Positions 2,025 to 17,281 of a stretch of DNA of 22,073 nucleotides are shown one piece after another. The stretch lies in IMG/VR virus record IMGVR_UViG_3300025062_000007, positions 1 to 22,073 of that record; one strand, given 5' to 3'. The number at the start of each line of letters is the position of its first letter. Position 1 is the stretch's first letter. This DNA is from a virus. Under the pieces are notes generated by a model. That model was not told the origin of the DNA. It made no database searches and saw nothing but the letters and a program-made list of their open reading frames with translations. The position numbers and the translations under genes were made by a program.

Positions 2025-5000
2025 TACCGCTTAACTCCTAATATCTGGCAAGCTGATGTTTCAAAACCAAACTCGTGATTAGTTTGTGTTCTAAAGTCCT
2101 TATAATTACCTGGTCCGCCTACGTAGGCGTTAGCAAATAAAACTATCTCAGCTATATACGTCACCTCTCCTAGTGCTTTTGGTGGAGAGTCCAAGATAGT
2201 CGGCATGGTCATTGTCTGGGGCGGTATACTTGCTGCAATGGAAGAAGCCATTCTCTTCACCCTTAAAGGAGTTGTTAGGTCTAACCTGCGAACCTGCAAA
2301 TCGATATATTGGGGCGGAGTGATAGGTGTAGTTTTCGCTACTAAATCTAAGTAAACCATATCAGCAGAAAATTGTATGGAAACTGAACCACCCATTGGGT
2401 CGAATGTTGCTCTTGCAGCTTCAAAAACCCATTTGTGGAAATACCCAGGCTGACCAAACGGCGGGTTTGCTATATATACTTCGGAGTAGCTTACACCACT
2501 GCGCGGCACATTGTCTTTAAGAATGACAGTTTTATTTGGTATGTAAAACAATCTAGGGATTGTCACCGCATTACCCTTTATCTGCAACGTATCCACCTGC
2601 GCATCACCTATTTGAGCAGTCTTAATAGCCGCATCTTTGATTTGTATCGTATCAATAGAAGCGCGAGGTGCATAAAAGTTGCGAGTGTATAGCCCTGCTG
2701 GTACGGTCACACCATCAATCACACTTGCCGTATTGCGTACCACTAATTGACTTAAGCCATCATCACCGCCGACTGGTGGCGATACATAAAAGTTATCTGC
2801 ATAAACGGCAAACTCACCAGTTTTGCCATCGTTGTATGTACCTACGCCAACAACCTTGCCGTTTACATCGAGCAGAGTCGTAGATTGAGCACGTAGACCA
2901 TCAACCACCTCATCCGACCTTTGTATTGACGCAGTATTTTCGCCCACTGTTGTTTGTAGCGTCGTGACCTTGCTCGCTGTCGCACTTGTTGATGTTGCGA
3001 CCGTGTTTAGATTTTCGATAAACTGAGCATTACTACCAGCTACACTAGATTGCAAGTTTGTTATGCGCTCATTCATCGCATAGTTATCACGCGCCACCGT
3101 TTTTGCGTATGTCCATTGCTGCGACTGACTGCTAAAGTATGTCGTTTTATCAAAATATTCGGGCTGATAGTCTGCAATGATGCCGTCCAGCCTTTCGCCT
3201 TGAGTGCCAAATTCGTTTGTTACAGATTGCTCGAAGTTAATAAATTGAGTATTTGTGGCATTAATACGGTTATTGGCTGCTAGTATTTCATTAATACGGT
3301 CTTGTGTCTCTTGACTGATTGCAAGCTCATTATCTTCAATCTTGCCAATCTTAGTAGTCAAAGCAGTATTGAGTGACGACTCTCTTATTTGCCCCTCGAT
3401 TAAATCCATGACTTTATCAGCACTGGCATCTGTAACACCTGTTGCCCATGCTGACCACGGGCTGACAAAACCCAACTTATCAACTAAGCGAGCACGGTAC
3501 GACTGCGACAAGTTGCCTTGCAAGCCTGTGACCGTATGCGTATTAGTCGGATAACTGACCTGTGTAAGTGTTGCAACATTGACATCAGGCGCAGAACCGA
3601 CTTGTATTTCAGTAAATGCAGCATCACCTGAGCCACTAGCAAAGCCCCACTTCAAATCCATGCCAAACAAAATGCCGGTAGCAGTTAAACCAACTACTGT
3701 AGGCGGTAAACCTATCTTGCCCTTGACCTCTGTTAGCATCGAGCTTGTAGGCTGTGATTGCACATCAAACGCACTGACAGCTCGCACACGCGCAAGGTAC
3801 TGACCGCTATAAACACCGTCAATCTCTGCGCTAGTGTTACCCGTACGTGGCACTTTAATCCACGTCCCATCATCTTTACGCCACTCGACATCATAAGCAA
3901 CCGCACCGGATACTTGCGCCCAGCCTATCATGAGTGTTGCTACCGTTTGCCCTTGTACCTCACGATGACGACTACCGATAATCACACCGTCGGGCGCATC
4001 GACCGTATCGGGATTAACAATAGTGATATCAGTCGGTTTTACGTCTGTGCCAAAGTCGATAGCATCATACTTTTGTGGCTCATGCTGAATAGCGACAATG
4101 TTATAGGTATTGTCATCGTTCTCAGCGATCTGCATCACACGAAAACGCATCAGCTTTAAATCAGTCGTTTCAATCGCCCAAACGTGCTCAGGCTCAGCAC
4201 TGGTAAATCCTGCTGTTACTGTAATGCGATTGCCGACCACATTTGATATATTACGACGCTCTGATTTGCCGCTACCGCCGTTAATGATAAGCACATCACC
4301 GACACTAGCCGTTACCTCCCTATCAAGCTCTATGATGCGCTGTGTCTCATTGACAGTGCTAACACGACCGCCATTGGCGCGACCTGCAAACAGCTCATCT
4401 GATACATTGATGATATTGCCAACCGTACAGTTAACCCCATCTAAGCCGACACTAAAAGCGACTTGTCTAGTTTCTAACTGCTCAGTTTTTAGCGCCCACA
4501 GTCCGGCTCGTTGTGCTTGTGCTTGACTGGTACAACCAAAAGCGGATAAATCCAGCACTTTGACGCCAAATTTAGCCATCGCCTTTTCATCGCGTATGTA
4601 CTCGTATTCCGTTTCAAACTTATTAAGCGGATTACTCCAAGCGACTTTAGCTAAGGTATGACGGTCACGCGCTCTTGTGCCCGTGTATTCAAAATGACCA
4701 TCAATGACGTTTGCACGGCTAAAAGTATAAACAGGGTCTTGCGGTACATCCGCATCAAGAATGATTTTCTCGCCATTCCAGTACGACATAGCGCGGAATA
4801 TACCTGCGATATTCTGCAATACCGTGTAAGCATCTTCTTGTTTTTGCAGATAGACGTTACACGTAAAGCGTGGCTCTAGACCACCCTGACCGTCTGACAC
4901 CATCTGATCGCAATATTGACCAAGTGCGTACAATGACCATTTATCAATCATCGTTGCATCAAGTCTATCGCCTAAGCCGAAGCGCCACTGAGTACAAAGA

Positions 5001-7743: not shown

Positions 7744-8511
7744 CTATTGATAGTTGTAATTCATATTGAGGGACAGCAATTCGCTGCCTGTATAACCATA
7801 CTTAATCCTATACCTAACAGCGCCCTCAGACATTTTTATCTCTTTAGCTATCTCAGAAACTGTTAGCATCCTACCGTCACCAACATTATGTCTAACATCC
7901 CTTTTTCGCACTGGAGCCGACATATCTTTATTGGTAACACCATCATGTCTATGCCTAAGTGTTGAGTCAGCCATACCCAGCTCTCTAGCTGCCTCAGCGA
8001 TGGATGAATAACTAATGCCGTTGATACATACCAGCTTGTTATTCCTCTTATTATTACCTTGCACTAAGGGTGTTGTCCATCTGCAATTATCAGGGCTATA
8101 ACCCTTATTGTTATCTATTCTGTCAATAGTTGCGCCCTTCGGTCTGTCGCCCATGTCTGATATAAAATTATTAATATCAAGCCACCTATCACAAACACCT
8201 ATACCCCTGCCACCATAATCAGGGTAATTCCTAGAGTCTTCCTTGTTGCACCTATGTAGAATCCCGCTCCATGTTTTATATAGCGGATGTGTGGACATTC
8301 CATGTATTGTCTTTCTTTGTCTGCCGTACTCCTTTTGGTAGCAGCCACACGATACCTGATAGCCTTTTGTTACGCTGCCCTTACCTGCGCTTTTTACCAC
8401 TCCACACTCACAAGAGAAAAACCAGTTGATGCGGTTAGTAACACTCCTATCCCTACTTATTGCAGTTAATCGACCAAATTTCTGACCAGTTATATCTAAT
8501 TCTTTTGCCAT
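7744..8511 (-). CDS. Free-standing HNH homing endonuclease
   Basis: This 255-aa protein starts with the FGRLTAISR motif and a zinc-ribbon-like segment (C34-x-C36 ... C55-x-C57). The HNH core follows at about 100-155: GGRGIGVCDRW, then TIDRIDNNKGYSPDNCRW with N142 and the trailing Q151xNN. The first catalytic position is Asp130, not the usual His, which is common in this subgroup. Residues 165-190 (SSIAEAARELGMADSTLRHR) and 213-241 (TVSEIAKEIKMSEGAVRYR) are two NUMOD-like helix-turn-helix units for DNA recognition. It is inserted between L and K, has its own promoter and a hairpin over its ribosome binding site (AAGG at 8519-8522). Confidence 0.9.
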   Translation of the reverse strand: MAKELDITGQKFGRLTAISRDRSVTNRINWFFSCECGVVKSAGKGSVTKGYQVSCGCYQKEYGRQRKTIHGMSTHPLYKTWSGILHRCNKEDSRNYPDYGGRGIGVCDRWLDINNFISDMGDRPKGATIDRIDNNKGYSPDNCRWTTPLVQGNNKRNNKLVCINGISYSSIAEAARELGMADSTLRHRHDGVTNKDMSAPVRKRDVRHNVGDGRMLTVSEIAKEIKMSEGAVRYRIKYGYTGSELLSLNMNYNYQ

Positions 8512-10543: not shown

Positions 10544-10712
10544 GTAACAACCCTCCTTGACGTTTCTCTTTGCGTGTTACATCAATAACAATCTTTTTAA
10601 TCGAATCCGCCATTGCTCGGCTCATTTCTCGGTTTATCTCGTCACTGGTTTTCGACTTGCTGATTTCAGCACTGACATTAAAACCAAACAATCTTACGTT
10701 TAACTTAGCCAT
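10533..10712 (-). CDS. 59-aa ORF repeating the tape measure C-terminus
   Basis: The ATG at 10710-10712 overlaps the last codons of the tape measure gene and has GGGGG seven bases upstream. The protein begins MAKLNVRLFGFNVSAEISKS and ends VTRKEKRQGGLLRDP. Its last 30 residues align with the tape measure end (LRKEKRQGGMLYG), about 17 of 29 positions identical. The gene is closed by overlap with M. The AAGGAGG used by M lies inside its RQGG codons. It is probably a tip or tape-associated small protein. The function is not known. Confidence 0.75.
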   Translation of the reverse strand: MAKLNVRLFGFNVSAEISKSKTSDEINREMSRAMADSIKKIVIDVTRKEKRQGGLLRDP

Positions 10713-10744
10713 ACAACATACCCCCTTGGCGTTTCTCTTTGCGT
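10546..10744 (-). repeat. 30-bp direct repeat, tape measure end and next ORF end
   Basis: Segments 10546-10575 and 10715-10744 match at 26 of 30 positions, 169 bp apart. In both the bases encode KEKRQGG(M/L)L and carry the Shine-Dalgarno of the next gene. The repeat accounts for most of the protein similarity at the C-termini. Confidence 0.85.
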
Positions 10745-13700
10745 AACGTGTCCATGACTACGGCTTTGATACCGTTTGCCATATCACGCCCCATGCGTTC
10801 ATTGTCGCCCGATACGCTAGCATTGCCTTTAGCATCGACGTTTACGTTGATATTGATATCGCCAACTCCACCACCACTAGGCGCCTTACCACTCCGCATA
10901 GCATTGAGATTATCAACCCCGATACGCTTAGTCGATTGAGCATCAAAGACGTACTCTTGACCGTGGACCGCCCCAGCTACTTGATTAACGCCCATGTTGC
11001 CCGTGTAACCACCAGCCTTGAAGCCTTTGGGGTTAATAGCGCCAACTGCTGCTTGAATAACACCTGTTTCTGCTGCCGCAATCGCCACAGCGCCCAAGTT
11101 ATAAGGAAATGGTGCAGACGCCCATGCCAATGCTAGAGCCGTCTTACTGGCTAACAAGACACGCGCTAATGCCAGTCCCTTTTCAACTGCAAACATGGCT
11201 CTATAGATACCTGATTGCTCACCAGCAAAACCTTTGGCGATACTCGCAAGACTGCCAAATAGCTTTTCATTGCCTGATAGCAGCAAATCACGCTTAGCGT
11301 CCATATAAGACTGCTCAATGGCTTTTCGCTTCTCAACTTCTGATCCGATAATGCCAGTCTCTAACATTTCATTGGTCTTTATGATTTCTAATCGACGCGC
11401 ATAATCCGCTTCAATCTTAGCCATTGGCGATTCATTAACTAACTCAGTCATCACGCCATCAACTGCTTTTTTGCTCGCTTCCTTATCTTTACCAAGCTGT
11501 GCAAATCTCGCTTGTATTGCAGCCGTAGCTTTAGCTGTCATGCCTAGCTGCTCAAGCGCCCGTGTTTGCTCAATGAGCTTATCGGTCAACTCTTTAGTGG
11601 CGTCTTTGTATTTATCGGTGTGCTCAATATCGTACATGAGCGAGGCAAGTGAGCTACTATTACCAAATAACGCTGTCTGCTTCATTAGCCCGTCAATACT
11701 GTCTTGTACTGACTTATTAGCGGCTGCCAGTTTGGTTTTTGCTTCAAGCTCAGCAGTAACATTACGATACTCGTTCTTTTTAGCATCGCTCACACCATTG
11801 TACTTACCGATTTTAATATCGTACTCGAGATCCGCTAAGTTGCTGTTATTGCCAAATAGCGCAAGCTCCTTTTTAATTCTAGCAATGCCAGTGTCCACTG
11901 CTTCAATGGCAGAGCTTGCCATTTTTTGCGCTTCGGTTTTGACAGCTTTAGCGCCTTTTTTGATACCGACTGCCATACCCTCGGCGGTCTGCTCACCGAC
12001 TTTTTTCATTACCCGTGAAGGACTGCGAATATCAAGCACACTTTTAGCTTTAGCAACTGCACTTGACGCCATACTACCGATTGCAGTAGCAACACCACTT
12101 GCGCCTGACTTGATACCGTTGACTAAACCCATCACGATATCTCTACCGATTTGCATCATACGGCTAGGCAGTTGGCTTAACGTCGTTATAATGCTTGTCT
12201 TAATGTTATTAAACGCTGTTACCGTAGCGGTTTTAATGCTATTCCAAGCACTGCTTACCGCCTGTTTTGCAGCTTCAAGACTGGATTTAATCGTCGCTGT
12301 GATAGCTGCCCATTTAGCGTTAGCGTAGGCGTTGATCTGATCCCAGTTTTTATACAGAGCCACACCGATAGCTATCAAACTTGCAATAGCGATAACCAAG
12401 ATACCGATAGGACTTGTCACAAAAGCAATCGCAGCACCAAACGCCCATGTTGCTGTAGCAGCGACAGCACTGATTGCAGACCACGTTACAGTAGCAGCCG
12501 TCATGATAGCTGTTGATGCAGCAGCAGCAGCAGACGCCACAGAGCTAGCGATAAGTGCGGCATTGTGAATCAATAGTATTGCTGACACCCCACCTATCAC
12601 ACCACCTATCACTGTAAATAGTGTCTTATTCTCGCTAATCGTTTTACTGATAGTTTCCCAGTTTTGATAAACCAATACGCCCACTACAACCAGCGCTGAT
12701 AGCGCGGCAATAGTTAAGCCCATTGGCGTGGCTAATGCGGTATAAGCGAGCTTTAAGCCATCTATGGTTGTCTTGGCAGCATTAACGCCATCAGCAAAAA
12801 GCTTCATGCTTACAACTGCTGCAAGCAATGAGCCGCCAATCGTTACAATTTGCTTAATTAATTCAGGGTTTTCAGACACCCATATACTTATCGTGGCTAT
12901 AAAAGGGGTTAGTGTATAGAGCAAGTCATTTAATGCTGGTATAAAAGCATCACCAATCCCAGCAACTACGCCATCGATATTCTGCTTAAATAACTTCATT
13001 TTATTGGCAGACGTTTCGCTAATTTTTACAAACTCCTCGTCCATCGAACCAAAATACTCTTTGGTTGTGCCAGCTGTCTCACCAAGCATCGCCCAGTTGT
13101 TTTCTAGTACGCCCACACTAGCTGCGAGCATGGTTATATCATCACCAAACTCTTTACCAATGATTAGTGCGTTTGTACCGATTCGCTCCGACTGCTCAAG
13201 CTTATTGATAGCCTCTAAATAAGTAGTGATTGCTTGTTTACCATCTGTTTTGACTAGCTTGCTAAAATCCTCAATGTTTAATCCTAGCTGTTGAAATCCT
13301 ATCTCTTGTGATTTGGTAGCATTATCTAGCGTAGAGAATGTAGTCAATAGTGAGTTGACCGCCGTTGATGCAACCTCGGCAGGCTTACCCATTGCGATTA
13401 ATGCACCTGTTAAGCCTAACGTTGCGTCCTCTGACAAGCCAAAGACTTTTGCCACGCCACCGACACGCTGTAATGAATCGATAAGTTGTGCTGCTGTGGC
13501 TGGCGTATTGTTTGATAGTGTATTGATCGCATCTCCCAAATTACTGATATTCTCAATCGGTATCTGAAACACGTTAGCGATTTTTGCCATGCTGTCAGCG
13601 GCTTGCTGTGCTGGTATATCAAACGCCACGCCCATCTTTGCCATAGTCTCAGTAAAACCAATTAGGTTTTCCTCTGCGATACCTAGCTGACCACCCGTAG

Positions 13701-14124
13701 CGGTAACAGCCGCCAATTCTTCAAACGTCTGCGGTATGCGCGTGGTTAGCTCTTGCAGACCCTTGCGCATATTTGCCAAACCATCATCGGCTGCAAAATT
13801 AACCGTCTTATTAATTTCAGCCATAGATGATTCCCATGACTGAGCTTTGTTAATAGATAGCCCGATAGCACCAGCAAGTGCAACACCTGCTAATGCAGCC
13901 GCTTTTGCCATACCATCTAATGCTTTTTGACCGCTTGCAGCCGACGCATTTAGCCTATTGGTATCACGGCTTGCCCTATCAGCTCTGTTACCCAAATCAC
14001 CCGTATCGTCTGCTGCACCGTCTGCTGCTGCACCAAGCTCTTTTAGTCGCTCTTTTAATGCCTTAATACGAGCCTCGGCAGCTTGCGAATCAATGACAAT
14101 ACTAAGTCTACTTTCCTGCTCCAT
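10705..14124 (-). CDS. H: Tail tape measure protein H
   Basis: This 1139-aa protein sets tail length and enters the host membrane during DNA delivery. The N-terminal 70 residues are helical (SQAAEARIKALKERLKELGA). Residues about 110-380 are the conserved phage minor-tail/TP901 core, with ELAAVTATGGQLGIAEENLI. Several hydrophobic stretches lie at about 420-620 (for example IGILVIAIASLIAIGVALY), followed by long helices. The C-terminus reads LRKEKRQGGMLYG. The open frame extends to 14163, but the upstream part lies next to a terminator; ATG at 14124 has AAGGGG six bases before it. An ATG at 14148 is the alternative. Confidence 0.92.
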   Translation of the reverse strand: MEQESRLSIVIDSQAAEARIKALKERLKELGAAADGAADDTGDLGNRADRASRDTNRLNASAASGQKALDGMAKAAALAGVALAGAIGLSINKAQSWESSMAEINKTVNFAADDGLANMRKGLQELTTRIPQTFEELAAVTATGGQLGIAEENLIGFTETMAKMGVAFDIPAQQAADSMAKIANVFQIPIENISNLGDAINTLSNNTPATAAQLIDSLQRVGGVAKVFGLSEDATLGLTGALIAMGKPAEVASTAVNSLLTTFSTLDNATKSQEIGFQQLGLNIEDFSKLVKTDGKQAITTYLEAINKLEQSERIGTNALIIGKEFGDDITMLAASVGVLENNWAMLGETAGTTKEYFGSMDEEFVKISETSANKMKLFKQNIDGVVAGIGDAFIPALNDLLYTLTPFIATISIWVSENPELIKQIVTIGGSLLAAVVSMKLFADGVNAAKTTIDGLKLAYTALATPMGLTIAALSALVVVGVLVYQNWETISKTISENKTLFTVIGGVIGGVSAILLIHNAALIASSVASAAAAASTAIMTAATVTWSAISAVAATATWAFGAAIAFVTSPIGILVIAIASLIAIGVALYKNWDQINAYANAKWAAITATIKSSLEAAKQAVSSAWNSIKTATVTAFNNIKTSIITTLSQLPSRMMQIGRDIVMGLVNGIKSGASGVATAIGSMASSAVAKAKSVLDIRSPSRVMKKVGEQTAEGMAVGIKKGAKAVKTEAQKMASSAIEAVDTGIARIKKELALFGNNSNLADLEYDIKIGKYNGVSDAKKNEYRNVTAELEAKTKLAAANKSVQDSIDGLMKQTALFGNSSSLASLMYDIEHTDKYKDATKELTDKLIEQTRALEQLGMTAKATAAIQARFAQLGKDKEASKKAVDGVMTELVNESPMAKIEADYARRLEIIKTNEMLETGIIGSEVEKRKAIEQSYMDAKRDLLLSGNEKLFGSLASIAKGFAGEQSGIYRAMFAVEKGLALARVLLASKTALALAWASAPFPYNLGAVAIAAAETGVIQAAVGAINPKGFKAGGYTGNMGVNQVAGAVHGQEYVFDAQSTKRIGVDNLNAMRSGKAPSGGGVGDININVNVDAKGNASVSGDNERMGRDMANGIKAVVMDTLRKEKRQGGMLYG

Positions 14125-14147
14125 TGCCGACCCCTTTATTTTAGGCA

Positions 14148-14173
14148 TAAAAAAACCACTCAAAAGAGTGGTT
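14148..14173 (-). terminator. Terminator just upstream of the tape measure gene
   Basis: On the minus strand AACCACTC-TTTT-GAGTGGTT (14154-14173), an 8-bp perfect stem, is followed by six Ts (14148-14153). Confidence 0.85.
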
Positions 14174-14185
14174 GTAAATTCGTAA

Positions 14186-14213
14186 TAAAAAGCCCTGCAA
14201 TTTATGCAAGGCT
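14186..14213 (-). terminator. Terminator after the antirepressor gene
   Basis: On the minus strand a 9-bp stem (14191-14213, one wobble, loop TAAAT) is followed by a short T run. Together with the hairpin at 14148-14173 it forms a double stop between the antirepressor cassette and the tape measure. Confidence 0.75.
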
Positions 14214-14241
14214 CTCTTTGATTTAAGTTTTGGCTAGTCTA

Positions 14242-15078
14242 TTATCGACCGCCCCAAGTGCGAGTACGTGCATCTTGGCGTTCGATAAACGCTCTTGCTT
14301 GCTCTAATGCCGTTTGACTACCACCCTCACCTAATTTAACCAGCTTTCTTTGTTCGCCGAAAGCATCATAAATAAGACTGCTATGACCTTGAGCATTACC
14401 TATTGCGTTATATAGGTCACTTACCGCCTTGTGAGCCTCTCCTAGCGCCTTGCTTAGCTCAAAATGCTTTAGTATGCCAACACAGCGCCACATTTCGTTA
14501 TCCATTGCTTTGTCAATATCTACGCCGCCATGCTGAACCTGCATAAGTAAGCCATGTATGTAGTCGATTGCTTGTGGCACTTGTTCGACTGTCATCTCAT
14601 GAACACCCTCTAAGCCAAAGCGTTGATGCATCATTTTCCATACATCGGCATAAAAAGCGCCTGTTTTAGCACAAAAGGTATTTACTGCTGCACCTAATGG
14701 TTTTCTGTCAGCTATGGTTGAAAGGGTTTTTGTTTGTACTGGCTGACCAACCTCTTTGTCAAGAATATCGAGAACCCATTTACGAAATGCTTTGGCAATT
14801 TCGGTACGGGCAAACATTGCAAGTAAGTGACAACCTCGAAGTGAAAAAATTCGTACATCTCTTTTATTCCCTTCACCACTACCAAAACCTTTCACCACCA
14901 TGTTAATAGTGGCGGTCATGCTACCTGTAAACTCGTCTTTATTGCGATTGTACAAATTAGATATCTTATCAGTTCTGCTATAGCCAAGAGCTTTAGCTAT
15001 TTCGGTAGATGTTAACCATATTTGACCATTTTGCTGAACTGGGTTAAAATCAACTTCGTTAAAGGTTAAAGTATTCAT
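14242..15078 (-). CDS. Bro-N domain phage antirepressor
   Basis: This 278-aa protein has a BRO family N-terminal domain at about residues 1-112: LTFNEVDFNPVQQNGQIWLT, STEIAKALGYSRTDKISNLY and the closing RGCHLLAMFARTEIAKAFRKWVLDIL. Residues 120-200 (ADRKPLGAAVNTF, YADVWKMMHQRFG) resemble C-terminal domains of phage antirepressors. Such proteins bind and inactivate prophage repressors. It starts two bases after the Arc-like gene stops, with AAAGGA seven bases before the ATG, so the two form an operon. The partner is unknown. The neighbouring CI-like repressor or a main repressor elsewhere are both candidates. Confidence 0.85.
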   Translation of the reverse strand: MNTLTFNEVDFNPVQQNGQIWLTSTEIAKALGYSRTDKISNLYNRNKDEFTGSMTATINMVVKGFGSGEGNKRDVRIFSLRGCHLLAMFARTEIAKAFRKWVLDILDKEVGQPVQTKTLSTIADRKPLGAAVNTFCAKTGAFYADVWKMMHQRFGLEGVHEMTVEQVPQAIDYIHGLLMQVQHGGVDIDKAMDNEMWRCVGILKHFELSKALGEAHKAVSDLYNAIGNAQGHSSLIYDAFGEQRKLVKLGEGGSQTALEQARAFIERQDARTRTWGGR

Positions 15079-15079
15079 A

Positions 15080-15289
15080 TTAGTTTCCTTTGATTAGTGA
15101 GCGAGCAGACAATTCATCTTGGCGGGTGATGTCTGCTTTTTTATTGCCTTGGGTTTCTTCTAGCAGTCCTTCACTGTCTAAAGCTAACTTTAAATAGTAG
15201 ATAAACTGTCTGCGAATAGACCTATCTTCTTGCTTGGCTCTTCTTTTAACGATATCCGCTAAATCATCGTCATAAATACACGTATACAT
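15080..15289 (-). CDS. Arc-like ribbon-helix-helix repressor
   Basis: This 69-aa protein starts with a short strand (MYTCIYD) and two helices (DDLADIVKRRAKQEDRS; IRRQFIYYLKLALDSEG), the layout of Arc/MetJ DNA-binding dimers. The ribosome binding site is AAGGA eight bases before the ATG. It comes first in an operon with the Bro-N antirepressor. In P22 the Arc protein represses ant transcription. The same negative control is likely here, acting on palindromes in the intergenic space to the right. The C-terminal 25 residues are extra compared with Arc (53 aa). Confidence 0.75.
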   Translation of the reverse strand: MYTCIYDDDLADIVKRRAKQEDRSIRRQFIYYLKLALDSEGLLEETQGNKKADITRQDELSARSLIKGN

Positions 15290-15299
15290 AGTATAATTC

Positions 15300-15370
15300 C
15301 TTATATTAAGTGTTTAATTCAATCAACTTATTAAGTTTAATACGTTTTAATAAGTTAAAAGTATATTATA
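15300..15370. promoter_or_regulatory. Divergent promoter/operator region with palindromes
   Basis: This AT-rich 111-base gap separates divergent arc-like and cI-like genes. It holds a perfect 13-base palindrome AACTTATTAAGTT (15325-15337). A 10-bp inverted repeat (15325-15334 with 15347-15356) also spans it, and ATTAAGT-TTAAT motifs recur at 15305-15318 and 15330-15341. These are operator candidates for the repressor, the Arc-like protein or both. TATATT/TATTAT at 15362-15369 could be a -10 for the plus-strand gene. No clear -35 is visible in either direction. Confidence 0.6.
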
Positions 15371-15400
15371 CGACTAAAATAACAAGGTCAAGGGTTTTTT

Positions 15401-15994
15401 ATGATTGATAATTTCCCAGCGCGTCTTAGATACTTCCGCTCAAAGCAAAACTTATCTCAAACTGATTTATCTGACTTGGTTGGTATATCCCAGAAGCAGA
15501 TATCGGATTACGAGGTAGGTAACAGCATGCCGCGGCAATCCAACCTGTTAAAGCTTATTGAGGCTCTTAAGATTACCAAGCAAGAGTTTATGACCACCCC
15601 TATAGATACAACAAATGATCTGGTATCTGACTTACAGTTTTTTGAATTCCATAATGAAGCTTCCAACCTTAAAATATCTCTACCCACCACTATTGCTCAA
15701 GACCTTCCTTTAGATAAAGAAAAAATTATCCCAACTAGAATAAATGGGCAGTCAATGCTGCCACTATTAAATAATGGTGATATCGCTCTAATAGATACAA
15801 ACCAAAATCAACCACAAGATGGTGAGGTTTTCGCTATCAGCTTTTTTAACGAAGAGTTAGTCGCGAGAGTTTTTAGAAATATAGATGGATCGATTATACT
15901 CTCTAGGGATAACGAGAGTTACCCACCAAAAACAGTAAGCCCTGCTGACATCGAAATAATAGGCAAGGTGGTTTATCGTATGGGTAGCATATAA
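15401..15994 (+). CDS. CI-like repressor, XRE HTH plus S24-type domain
   Basis: This 197-aa protein is the only convincing plus-strand phage gene here. Residues 6-62 are an XRE helix-turn-helix (LSQTDLSDLVGISQKQISDY). Residues 110-195 are a LexA/CI S24 domain with Ser118 in NGQSMLPLLNNGD. The segment aligning with the catalytic lysine (VKRL in LexA) reads LVARVFR, so Ala155 stands at that place. No Ala-Gly or Cys-Gly dipeptide is seen in the linker. It probably binds DNA and dimerises but cannot self-cleave. AAGGG lies six bases before the ATG. It faces away from the Arc-like/antirepressor operon. Confidence 0.88.
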   Translation: MIDNFPARLRYFRSKQNLSQTDLSDLVGISQKQISDYEVGNSMPRQSNLLKLIEALKITKQEFMTTPIDTTNDLVSDLQFFEFHNEASNLKISLPTTIAQDLPLDKEKIIPTRINGQSMLPLLNNGDIALIDTNQNQPQDGEVFAISFFNEELVARVFRNIDGSIILSRDNESYPPKTVSPADIEIIGKVVYRMGSI

Positions 15995-16142
15995 CCCACT
16001 TATCATCTCACTTTTCCTTGCCCCCCATATTGAGGGTCAAGGGATAAGTTATTGATTTTAAGGTATATATTAATATTACTCTGCATATTTGCAGACTGCA
16101 TAATAGTTGGTTCATTATATTTGCAGAACAGTTATTCCAAAG

Positions 16143-16172
16143 AAAAACCCACCGATTAAATGGTGGGTTTTT
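16143..16172. terminator. Bidirectional terminator between repressor and lipoprotein genes
   Basis: AAAAACCCACC-GATTAAAT-GGTGGGTTTTT is perfect on both strands. It serves the convergent repressor gene (plus) and lipoprotein gene (minus). Confidence 0.85.
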
Positions 16173-16186
16173 CAATTCTGCTATTA

Positions 16187-16459
16187 TTATTTATCTATCC
16201 CTGCGGCTTTACAGTCTGTCTTTTCTATCGCTTTCCATTCGTTGTACTTGGCTTCATCTTGAGATTGCAGATAGGCGGCGCTCACCATTCCTGCTTGTAC
16301 GCAAGTTTGTATAACGTCACCTTGTTTTTTAGCTATATCGTACTGAGCAACCATATCATCGGCTACTTTATTATGAATCTTGTCCATCTGCATATCTGTT
16401 GCGGCATCACAGCCAACTAAAGATAAGACAAACAATGTTCCCACTAATATATTTTTCAT
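16187..16459 (-). CDS. Small lipoprotein, probable lysogenic conversion gene
   Basis: This 90-aa precursor has a lysine-led signal peptide and the lipobox LVGC, with Cys17 as the lipidated residue. Asp18 follows at +2, a known inner-membrane retention signal that avoids Lol export. The mature part is helical with two cysteines (C52 region and C83 region). A TATAAT at 16480-16485 may be part of its own promoter. It lies between tail genes and the repressor, followed by the bidirectional terminator, so expression from the prophage is plausible. Superinfection exclusion or envelope modification is a guess from position and location. Confidence 0.7.
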   Translation of the reverse strand: MKNILVGTLFVLSLVGCDAATDMQMDKIHNKVADDMVAQYDIAKKQGDVIQTCVQAGMVSAAYLQSQDEAKYNEWKAIEKTDCKAAGIDK

Positions 16460-16514
16460 TACGCTATCACCATTAATCGATTATATAGCCATATCATAAC
16501 CGATTGTTGCCGAC

Positions 16515-16853
16515 TTAACTATCACTACTAACGTCCTTCATTTTTGCCTGCTCTCTTTGCTCGGACAGTACAATATCATCAATCGCAAAGATAATCGGAT
16601 CAAGCATACTTCGTGACATAGATATAGGATGCGCGTAAACCACGTCTGTTACGTCTTTAACACTTATAGGTAATGGATGTCCTTCAACGTATCTACGTCC
16701 CCTAGAGGCGTAGTAGTACGTTTGCAGTATGTTTTGTACGCTGTCATCAAAACTTGGCGGCTCTGGCACATCAAGCCCTAGATGCGCCATTACCTGCACA
16801 TCAAACTCTGTTAGGCTCGCGTAGTTTTTTTCCCAACTAAACCTCTCAATGGC
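16515..16853 (-). CDS. T: Tail assembly chaperone T part (read as G-T fusion)
   Basis: This frame has no good start of its own; it is entered from G by a -1 shift at 16853-16859. The fused product reads on from Lys143 of G into AIERFSWEKNYASLTEFDVQ, then VMAHLGLDVPEPPSF, and ends DVSSDS, giving about 255 aa (143 + 112). In lambda gpGT binds both the tape measure and tail tube proteins and is absent from the finished tail. A short GTG-initiated product beginning near 16799 is possible but has no evident role. Confidence 0.85.
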   Translation of the reverse strand, partial: AIERFSWEKNYASLTEFDVQVMAHLGLDVPEPPSFDDSVQNILQTYYYASRGRRYVEGHPLPISVKDVTDVVYAHPISMSRSMLDPIIFAIDDIVLSEQREQAKMKDVSSDS

Positions 16854-17281
16854 TTTTTTTTAGTATCAGCCGCTTGTGCCGAAAATTCTTGCGCCATTTC
16901 GTGAAAGTTATCAGAGATAAAACCGATAAACTCAGCATTTTCGTCATCATCACCAACAGACGCACACAAGGCAATGAAGTTATCACCGTTAATGGGTGCA
17001 GTCTTACCGTCACTGGTTTTAACATCCCAGTCAGTGATTAGGTACTCACCGATGACAATCATCATGCCTTCGCCCTGTGACAAGGTTTCAACAGCATTAT
17101 TTGCCTTTGATAGTGCCTCTTTTGTTAGTGGTTTTTCGGGATTCTGCAATTTTTTTAAGGCAGACACATAGTCTTTATCATCACTGATACGCATGGTCAG
17201 TGAAAGCAAGTCTTTATAGTTAAGCTCACGTACCACTTCGCCAAGCTTCTTTGGTTTCAAATCTTTTAAAGTAATAGCCAT
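16811..17281 (-). CDS. G: Tail assembly chaperone G
   Basis: This 156-aa protein, acidic and helical, begins AITLKDLKPKKLGEVV and ends KKTTRA. Its place between the tail tube gene and the T frame, its size (lambda gpG is 140 aa) and the frameshift near its end identify it as the gpG-type chaperone that coats the tape measure protein during assembly. AAGGA is eight bases before the ATG. Confidence 0.88.
   Translation of the reverse strand: MAITLKDLKPKKLGEVVRELNYKDLLSLTMRISDDKDYVSALKKLQNPEKPLTKEALSKANNAVETLSQGEGMMIVIGEYLITDWDVKTSDGKTAPINGDNFIALCASVGDDDENAEFIGFISDNFHEMAQEFSAQAADTKKKPLRGLVGKKTTRA
16853..16859 (-). promoter_or_regulatory. Programmed -1 frameshift site A AAA AAG
   Basis: The minus-strand heptamer is A AAA AAG in the G frame (AAG codon at 16855-16853), within eight consecutive As (16854-16861). 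This is the canonical slippery heptamer of bacterial -1 shifts such as dnaX. After slipping, the frame is open through T to 16515. Without slipping, G ends 14 codons later. Confidence 0.85.

Follow-up and report, generated by a model that had tools for sequence, protein, structure and literature searches.

A CI-like repressor instead of Mnt in a P22 immI-like cassette between the chaperone and tape measure genes of a virus with relatives in Psychrobacter

The DNA analysed here (hereafter the window) is a whole virus fragment of IMG/VR, IMGVR_UViG_3300025062_000007, of 22,073 bases. It carries a lambda-like tail module on the minus strand, whose relatives are found in Psychrobacter, and the early region lies outside the fragment. 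Within this module we find a compact three-gene cassette, in which a CI-like gene on the plus strand faces a gene for a small Arc-like protein and a gene for a Bro-N antirepressor on the minus strand (Table 1). This arrangement had been described in an earlier note on the same DNA, and the ORF coordinates bear it out. The position between the chaperone pair and the tape measure gene is also as described there, except that the slot holds a lipoprotein-like ORF absent from the earlier note; the gene order is chaperones, lipoprotein-like ORF, cassette and tape measure. A single base separates the Arc-like ORF from the Bro-N ORF, and these two genes (hereafter arc-ant) are transcribed in the same direction as the tail operon. 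Elsewhere in the module, a free-standing homing-endonuclease-like gene (7744-8511), with a match to the I-TevI DNA-binding domain, lies between tail genes L and K.

Table 1. The cassette and the features around it, with positions in the window.
Feature	Position	Strand	Remarks
Tail chaperone pair	16811-17281 and 16515-16799		
Lipoprotein-like ORF	16187-16459	-	Variable slot; accessory, probably outside the switch
Bidirectional terminator beyond the CI gene	16140-16182	both	-19.9 kcal/mol
CI-like repressor	15401-15994	+	197 aa; HTH_3 + Peptidase_S24; proposed Mnt-like maintenance repressor
Candidate arc-ant promoter	15363-15391	-	TTGACC 15391-15386; TATAAT 15370-15365 or TAATAT 15368-15363
Candidate operator	15325-15356		AACTTATTAA GT TTAATACGTT TTAATAAGTT, three 10-bp arms
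Arc-like (ribbon-helix-helix) protein, first gene of the arc-ant operon	15080-15289	-	69 aa
Bro-N antirepressor (Ant-like)	14242-15078	-	278 aa
Intrinsic terminator 1, downstream of Bro-N	14178-14216	-	-17.4 kcal/mol
Intrinsic terminator 2, downstream of Bro-N	14140-14178	-	-11.8 kcal/mol
Tape measure	10705-14163		As listed; likely ATG start near 14124

The CI-like protein matches Pfam HTH_3 (50.4 bits) and Peptidase_S24 (58 bits) and so, as had been stated, belongs to a family other than that of Mnt, a ribbon-helix-helix (RHH) protein. The identity of the antirepressor is equally clear. Its Bro-N match in Pfam (44.9 bits) lies above the cut-off, and in PHROGs it falls into the anti-repressor family phrog_2127 (193 bits). 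In its C-terminal part, moreover, aa 111-180 are similar to P22 Ant (31% over 70 aa).

The Arc-like ORF required more indirect evidence, as it has no Pfam, PHROG or convincing PDB-sequence match. An RHH profile made from the Arc and Mnt proteins of such cassettes scores it at 17.3 bits, which is reached by none of 4,098 scored shuffles, and the scored region covers the two-helix core with the RS motif. An AlphaFold2 model from nine sequences has the two RHH helices at residues 8-20 and 25-39 (pLDDT about 90-95), but the alignment contained RHH proteins and hence the model is not independent evidence. In a Foldseek search this model has P22 Arc as its best PDB matches (1baz and 1par; probability 0.99, rmsd 1.6-1.7, E only 0.2). 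We set aside an earlier model from three sequences, which formed a single long helix (pTM 0.37). When the two closest Arc-like sequences alone were compared with RHH proteins by hhalign, the match was weak (probability 36%). Moreover, the C-terminal stretch QGNKKADITRQDELSA is common to the window protein and the Arc-like protein of L004, a 33.5-kb virus record, and the N-terminal half of the latter reads as an RHH core. Altogether, profile and model support an Arc-like character of the 69-aa ORF, so that the label given in the earlier note can be kept without a Pfam match.

A double terminator had been noticed at the end of the cassette, and two minus-strand hairpins with T runs indeed lie between Bro-N and the tape measure gene. 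The bidirectional terminator beyond the CI gene shields the cassette from the lipoprotein/chaperone side. With terminators at both places, the cassette is insulated at both ends. The minus strand carries promoter-like boxes (TTGACC-N15-TATAAT or TTGACC-N17-TAATAT) that are directly followed by three 10-bp arms, AACTTATTAA / AACGTATTAA / TTAATAAGTT, and the predicted start adjoins this candidate operator. The promoter is a consensus match only, and the site counts of the scan do not exceed those of shuffles. A repressor sitting on the candidate operator would block initiation of arc-ant. No second copy of the operator palindrome or of the arm cluster was found elsewhere in the window and, hence, no wider CI regulon is visible in it.

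The location of the operator is relevant to the direction of control. Vibrio and Aeromonas phages have transcription-factor-driven antirepressor modules, in which the transcription factor accompanies a smORF and activates the neighbouring antirepressor gene, and some of these modules are counter-oriented and XRE-controlled (PMC10432266). By analogy, a signal might cause the CI-like protein to activate the arc-ant operon that it faces. We consider this quite improbable, because the candidate operator lies at and just downstream of the start of what is a predicted promoter, which is a repressing position, and because homologous slots hold Mnt/Arc-type proteins, which are repressors in P22.

The most informative feature of the CI-like protein is its S24 domain. 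Self-cleaving LexA/CI proteins of this type have a Ser-Lys dyad and an A-G or C-G cleavage site, and the window protein has neither: the Ser is kept (GQSM), the Lys is replaced by Ala (LVARVF), and the protein contains no A-G or C-G cleavage dipeptide. The catalytic Lys is likewise Ala in the only other known Psychrobacter copy of this type. In cassettes of two further lineages, which are described below, the substitutions are others, namely Ser to Ala together with Lys to Arg in the Providencia proteins, and Ser to Ala in the repressor of Escherichia phage JEP4. The dyad is broken in 6/6 cassette CI-like sequences from three lineages, with different substitutions in each, and none of the three has an A-G or C-G dipeptide in the expected stretch. 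On the other hand, it is intact in 33 of the 36 HTH-S24 repressors taken for comparison, which include the main repressors of PSTNGR2lys, JEP4, Psymv2 and tail-related prophages; this set was gathered by similarity with near-identical members included, and its ORFs were not filtered by the G.SM motif. The exceptions (L080, L081 and L086) are of an unusual type of 303-309 aa. This threefold loss of the dyad at the same genetic position, through substitutions that differ between the lineages, is the strongest new evidence of this study.

A CI-like protein that has lost the dyad is predicted to be unresponsive to RecA, which fits a maintenance repressor. We take it to be a maintenance repressor of arc-ant that does not respond to SOS, Mnt-like in its role but of another family. 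The same data bear on the possibility that the cassette is a second SOS sensor, in which Bro-N is freed by RecA-stimulated cleavage of the CI-like protein and induction is thereby coupled to DNA damage. The S24 domain and its intact Ser would suit such a sensor. However, an SOS-cleaved switch was rejected on the dyad state, that is, the Lys to Ala change in both Psychrobacter copies, along with the missing cleavage site and the broken dyads of the other two lineages, and we hold it to be the least probable of all readings considered.

The earlier note had suggested looking for the same triplet in relatives. It is present in the same slot of Psychrobacter nivimaris LAMA 639 contig 51 (L046, 6.9 kb), and CI-like proteins facing Arc and Bro-N also occur in Providencia and in JEP4. 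Scans of Psychrobacter, by tail and by genus, led to the P. nivimaris contig, while a scan of viral contigs with the CI-like protein gave no relative; only two CI-type copies are known in Psychrobacter, including the window. The order of genes in L046 is that of the window (chaperones, a 164-aa membrane-type protein, CI-like, Arc-like, Bro-N, tape measure), and the two loci are 81% identical in the CI-like protein, 83% in the Arc-like protein and about 94% in the intergenic/operator alignment, with the 32-bp candidate operator unchanged. All three cassette ORFs are intact in both. The cassette block as a whole has 81% DNA identity, compared with 70-74% for the flanking tail DNA. The Bro-N proteins differ in their C-terminal halves, where no DNA alignment extends beyond about residue 115, so their targets may differ. 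This half (window 14242-14734 vs L046:3011-3569) is exchanged or highly diverged, as if target specificity had been swapped.

In L005, L006, L007, L045 and L047, the same slot is without the cassette and contains other genes; L045 is another contig of P. nivimaris LAMA 639. The cassette is a removable unit inside the late operon, as are immI regions and ant morons. The slot between chaperone T and tape measure (14125-16500 in the window), considered across these five loci and L046, is a hotspot of variable genes, and its contents in relatives are a 282-aa TPR-like protein, a 447-aa repeat protein or membrane/lipoprotein-type proteins of 150-178 aa. Such a hotspot could also house a passenger moron that has no part in the regulation of the phage, and degraded immI regions are known in some P22-like phages (PMC2629481, PMC8022706). 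We regard a mere passenger as very improbable in view of the three intact ORFs in both copies, the unchanged operator and the higher identity of the cassette block relative to its flanks.

Related cassettes with other controllers occupy this slot as well. In L004, an Arc-family protein faces the Arc-like protein and Ant, and a separate S24 repressor is encoded early in the record. In Psychrobacter G090 (L110), a 104-aa Arc-family protein faces a 46-aa Arc, a Rha-like protein and Bro-N, and the cassette adjoins the tape measure gene. Early-region S24 repressors are also found in tail-related prophages. The earlier note had placed the main immunity region outside the window. Such a region would lie outside the 22-kb record, and its existence is deduced from relatives, namely PSTNGR2lys, JEP4 and the tail-related prophages.

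Beyond Psychrobacter, Providencia phage PSTNGR2lys and the related prophages L203 and L204 encode an HTH plus S24 protein facing a 56-aa Arc and Bro-N, and PSTNGR2lys has a separate main cI annotated next to cro. As in the window, the CI-like protein has lost the dyad, and in L203 and L204 the cassette lies downstream of genes of tail tube/chaperone type. Unlike in the window, both Ser and Lys are lost, the repressor is only about 29% identical to the window protein and, in PSTNGR2lys, the cassette follows the tail fibre gene. A third case is JEP4, a P22-like Lederbergvirus, where a C2-like repressor faces a 57-aa RHH-like protein and Bro-N in the ant moron, the main C2 being annotated separately elsewhere in the genome. 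This moron shares with the window a C2/CI-like facing repressor with a broken dyad, but Ser rather than Lys is lost, a KilA-type ant and an mnt-like gene are present in addition, and the position is that of P22, next to the tailspike. The annotated start of this C2-like gene (JEP4_14, L206:4983-5624) is 72 nt too late, and the full ORF has a complete HTH. Finally, Salmonella phages SPN3UB and vB_SosS_Oslo and Klebsiella phage ST512-KPC3phi13.1 resemble the window in that the tail operon includes an immI-type cassette, which lies upstream of the tape measure gene, and differ from it in that an ordinary RHH (Arc-like) protein takes the Mnt place. Since the same swap occurs in at least two unrelated phage lineages, the replacement of Mnt by a CI-type protein seems to be a recurring design and not a chance event.

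To place this swap among the controllers of Bro-N genes, we surveyed 87 Bro-N loci of IMG/VR. An RHH protein of the Mnt/Arc family faces Bro-N in 69 of them (39 distinct facing repressors, 27 clusters at 60%), an HTH protein in two (L175, adjacent, and L195, more than 1 kb away), and neither type in the remaining 16. RHH proteins in the CI place, upstream of the tape measure gene, are found in Acinetobacter Vieuvirus, in SPN3UB and Oslo, and in the Klebsiella phage. Several scanned loci without a facing repressor carry a C4, sRNA-Xcc1 or AaHKsRNA82 RNA upstream of Bro-N. In Psychrobacter, C4 or sRNA-Xcc1 RNAs precede the related Bro-N genes of L109, L111 and L112, and two of these genes are directly followed by an ORF of tape measure size. 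This is reminiscent of the C4 RNA control of ant in P1, and differs from the window in that the controller is an RNA and not a protein; no such RNA was found in the window.

These loci also inform on the target of Bro-N. It is conceivable that Bro-N acts on the facing CI-like protein itself, which would make the cassette a local bistable switch and possibly the sole immunity region of the prophage. There is a precedent in the Gifsy prophages, whose non-cleavable repressors are inactivated by antirepressors (PMC3121763), and absence of cleavage is likewise predicted for the cassette CI. Still, we find this alternative unlikely, because most loci of the same Bro-N family have a facing RHH protein or a preceding C4-type RNA, showing that the facing regulator need not be the target, and because a separate main repressor exists in PSTNGR2lys, JEP4 and the tail-related prophages.

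In P22, Mnt represses arc and ant, Arc moderates ant, and Ant binds C2 (PMC8022706, PMC11016777, PMC2629481). The cassette has the corresponding arrangement: an oppositely transcribed putative maintenance repressor, here the CI-like protein, faces an arc-ant operon within the late operon, and in arc-ant a small gene of Arc type (RHH according to profile and model, though not to Pfam) directly precedes the antirepressor gene. The differences from P22 are an HTH plus S24 protein instead of Mnt, an N-terminal Bro-N domain on Ant, and the location, as immI of P22 lies between gene 16 and the tailspike. No sar RNA was found either, the window having no Rfam match. Because the facing repressor is of HTH_3 plus S24 type and not RHH, the cassette is immI-like in its putative working and not a strict member of immI. 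The earlier comparison with P22 is nevertheless partly supported. Its structural half is well supported, since the CI-like protein occupies the place of the Mnt/Arc repressor of related cassettes, and by gene arrangement an assignment to the immI or ant moron type is likewise well supported. Its functional half, in which Bro-N would inactivate the main or a foreign repressor and the CI-like protein would block the Arc promoter, is a proposal. The ant moron has been reported to be highly variable, with the remark that phages without arc must be controlled in some other way (PMC2629481). In Psychrobacter phage vB_PmaS_Y8A, a gene annotated as Arc-like faces a KilA-N gene, upstream of the tape measure gene, and we found no immI interpretation of this pair in its description (PMC10434257). 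Our search of open papers gave no account of a CI-type repressor at the position of Mnt, although one may exist in subscription journals.

Our favoured reading, with a probability of roughly 70%, is that an ant moron of the immI type has inserted between the chaperone genes and the tape measure gene of the tail module, with the CI-like protein holding arc-ant off and Bro-N hitting a main CI-type repressor. It builds on observed features: gene content and order, domains, dyad loss, operator conservation, terminators and recurrence. From these we infer operator binding, direction of control, the Bro-N target and timing, as follows. In the lysogen, the CI-like protein bound to the palindromic operator at the arc-ant promoter would keep the antirepressor off, as Mnt does in P22, and it would not be removed by RecA/SOS because the self-cleavage dyad is missing. 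Upon infection, arc-ant would be transcribed before the CI-like protein accumulates, and the Arc-like protein would then damp the operon. The resulting short pulse of Bro-N may inactivate a main CI-type repressor, belonging either to the phage itself or to a resident prophage, and bias the outcome to lysis. In the late phase, transcription of the tail operon would read through arc-ant, the terminators probably being passed by late antitermination.

With somewhat better than even confidence, we extend this reading to a general pattern, in which main-immunity repressors of CI/C2 type have been repeatedly recruited to the Mnt place and have lost RecA-dependent self-cleavage each time. The antirepressor core would then be combined with exchangeable controllers, whether an RHH protein, a C4-type RNA or a dead CI, and here it would be read through with the tail genes. 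Such a pattern would mean that a protein of another fold can take over from the maintenance repressor of a secondary immunity region with the shape of the circuit preserved, and that a main repressor put to Mnt-type use sheds SOS sensing. In phage genomes, the state of the dyad could serve as a simple sequence mark by which main repressors that respond to SOS are distinguished from silent maintenance repressors. In addition, the dead CI would represent a further controller type for antirepressors, which decide prophage induction and mutual override.

Some of the Bro-N loci deserve separate mention. The Rfam family sRNA-Xcc1 (RF02221) is found shortly upstream of Bro-N in six of them (L111:9040-9128, L112:10413-10501, L125:4816-4903, L176:4631-4960, L192:4580-4668 and L196:4098-4468), mostly near the Bro-N start and, in L196, several hundred bases off. 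This location suggests that sRNA-Xcc1 is a C4-type regulator of antirepressors. A match to sar RNA (RF00262) lies near the Bro-N start in L186 (4911-4975), where an RHH protein faces Bro-N. In L175, an Acinetobacter-type prophage, the protein facing Bro-N (4372-4842) is a 156-aa HTH protein without S24, whose C-terminal half appears RHH-like by eye and which is possibly an HTH-RHH fusion.
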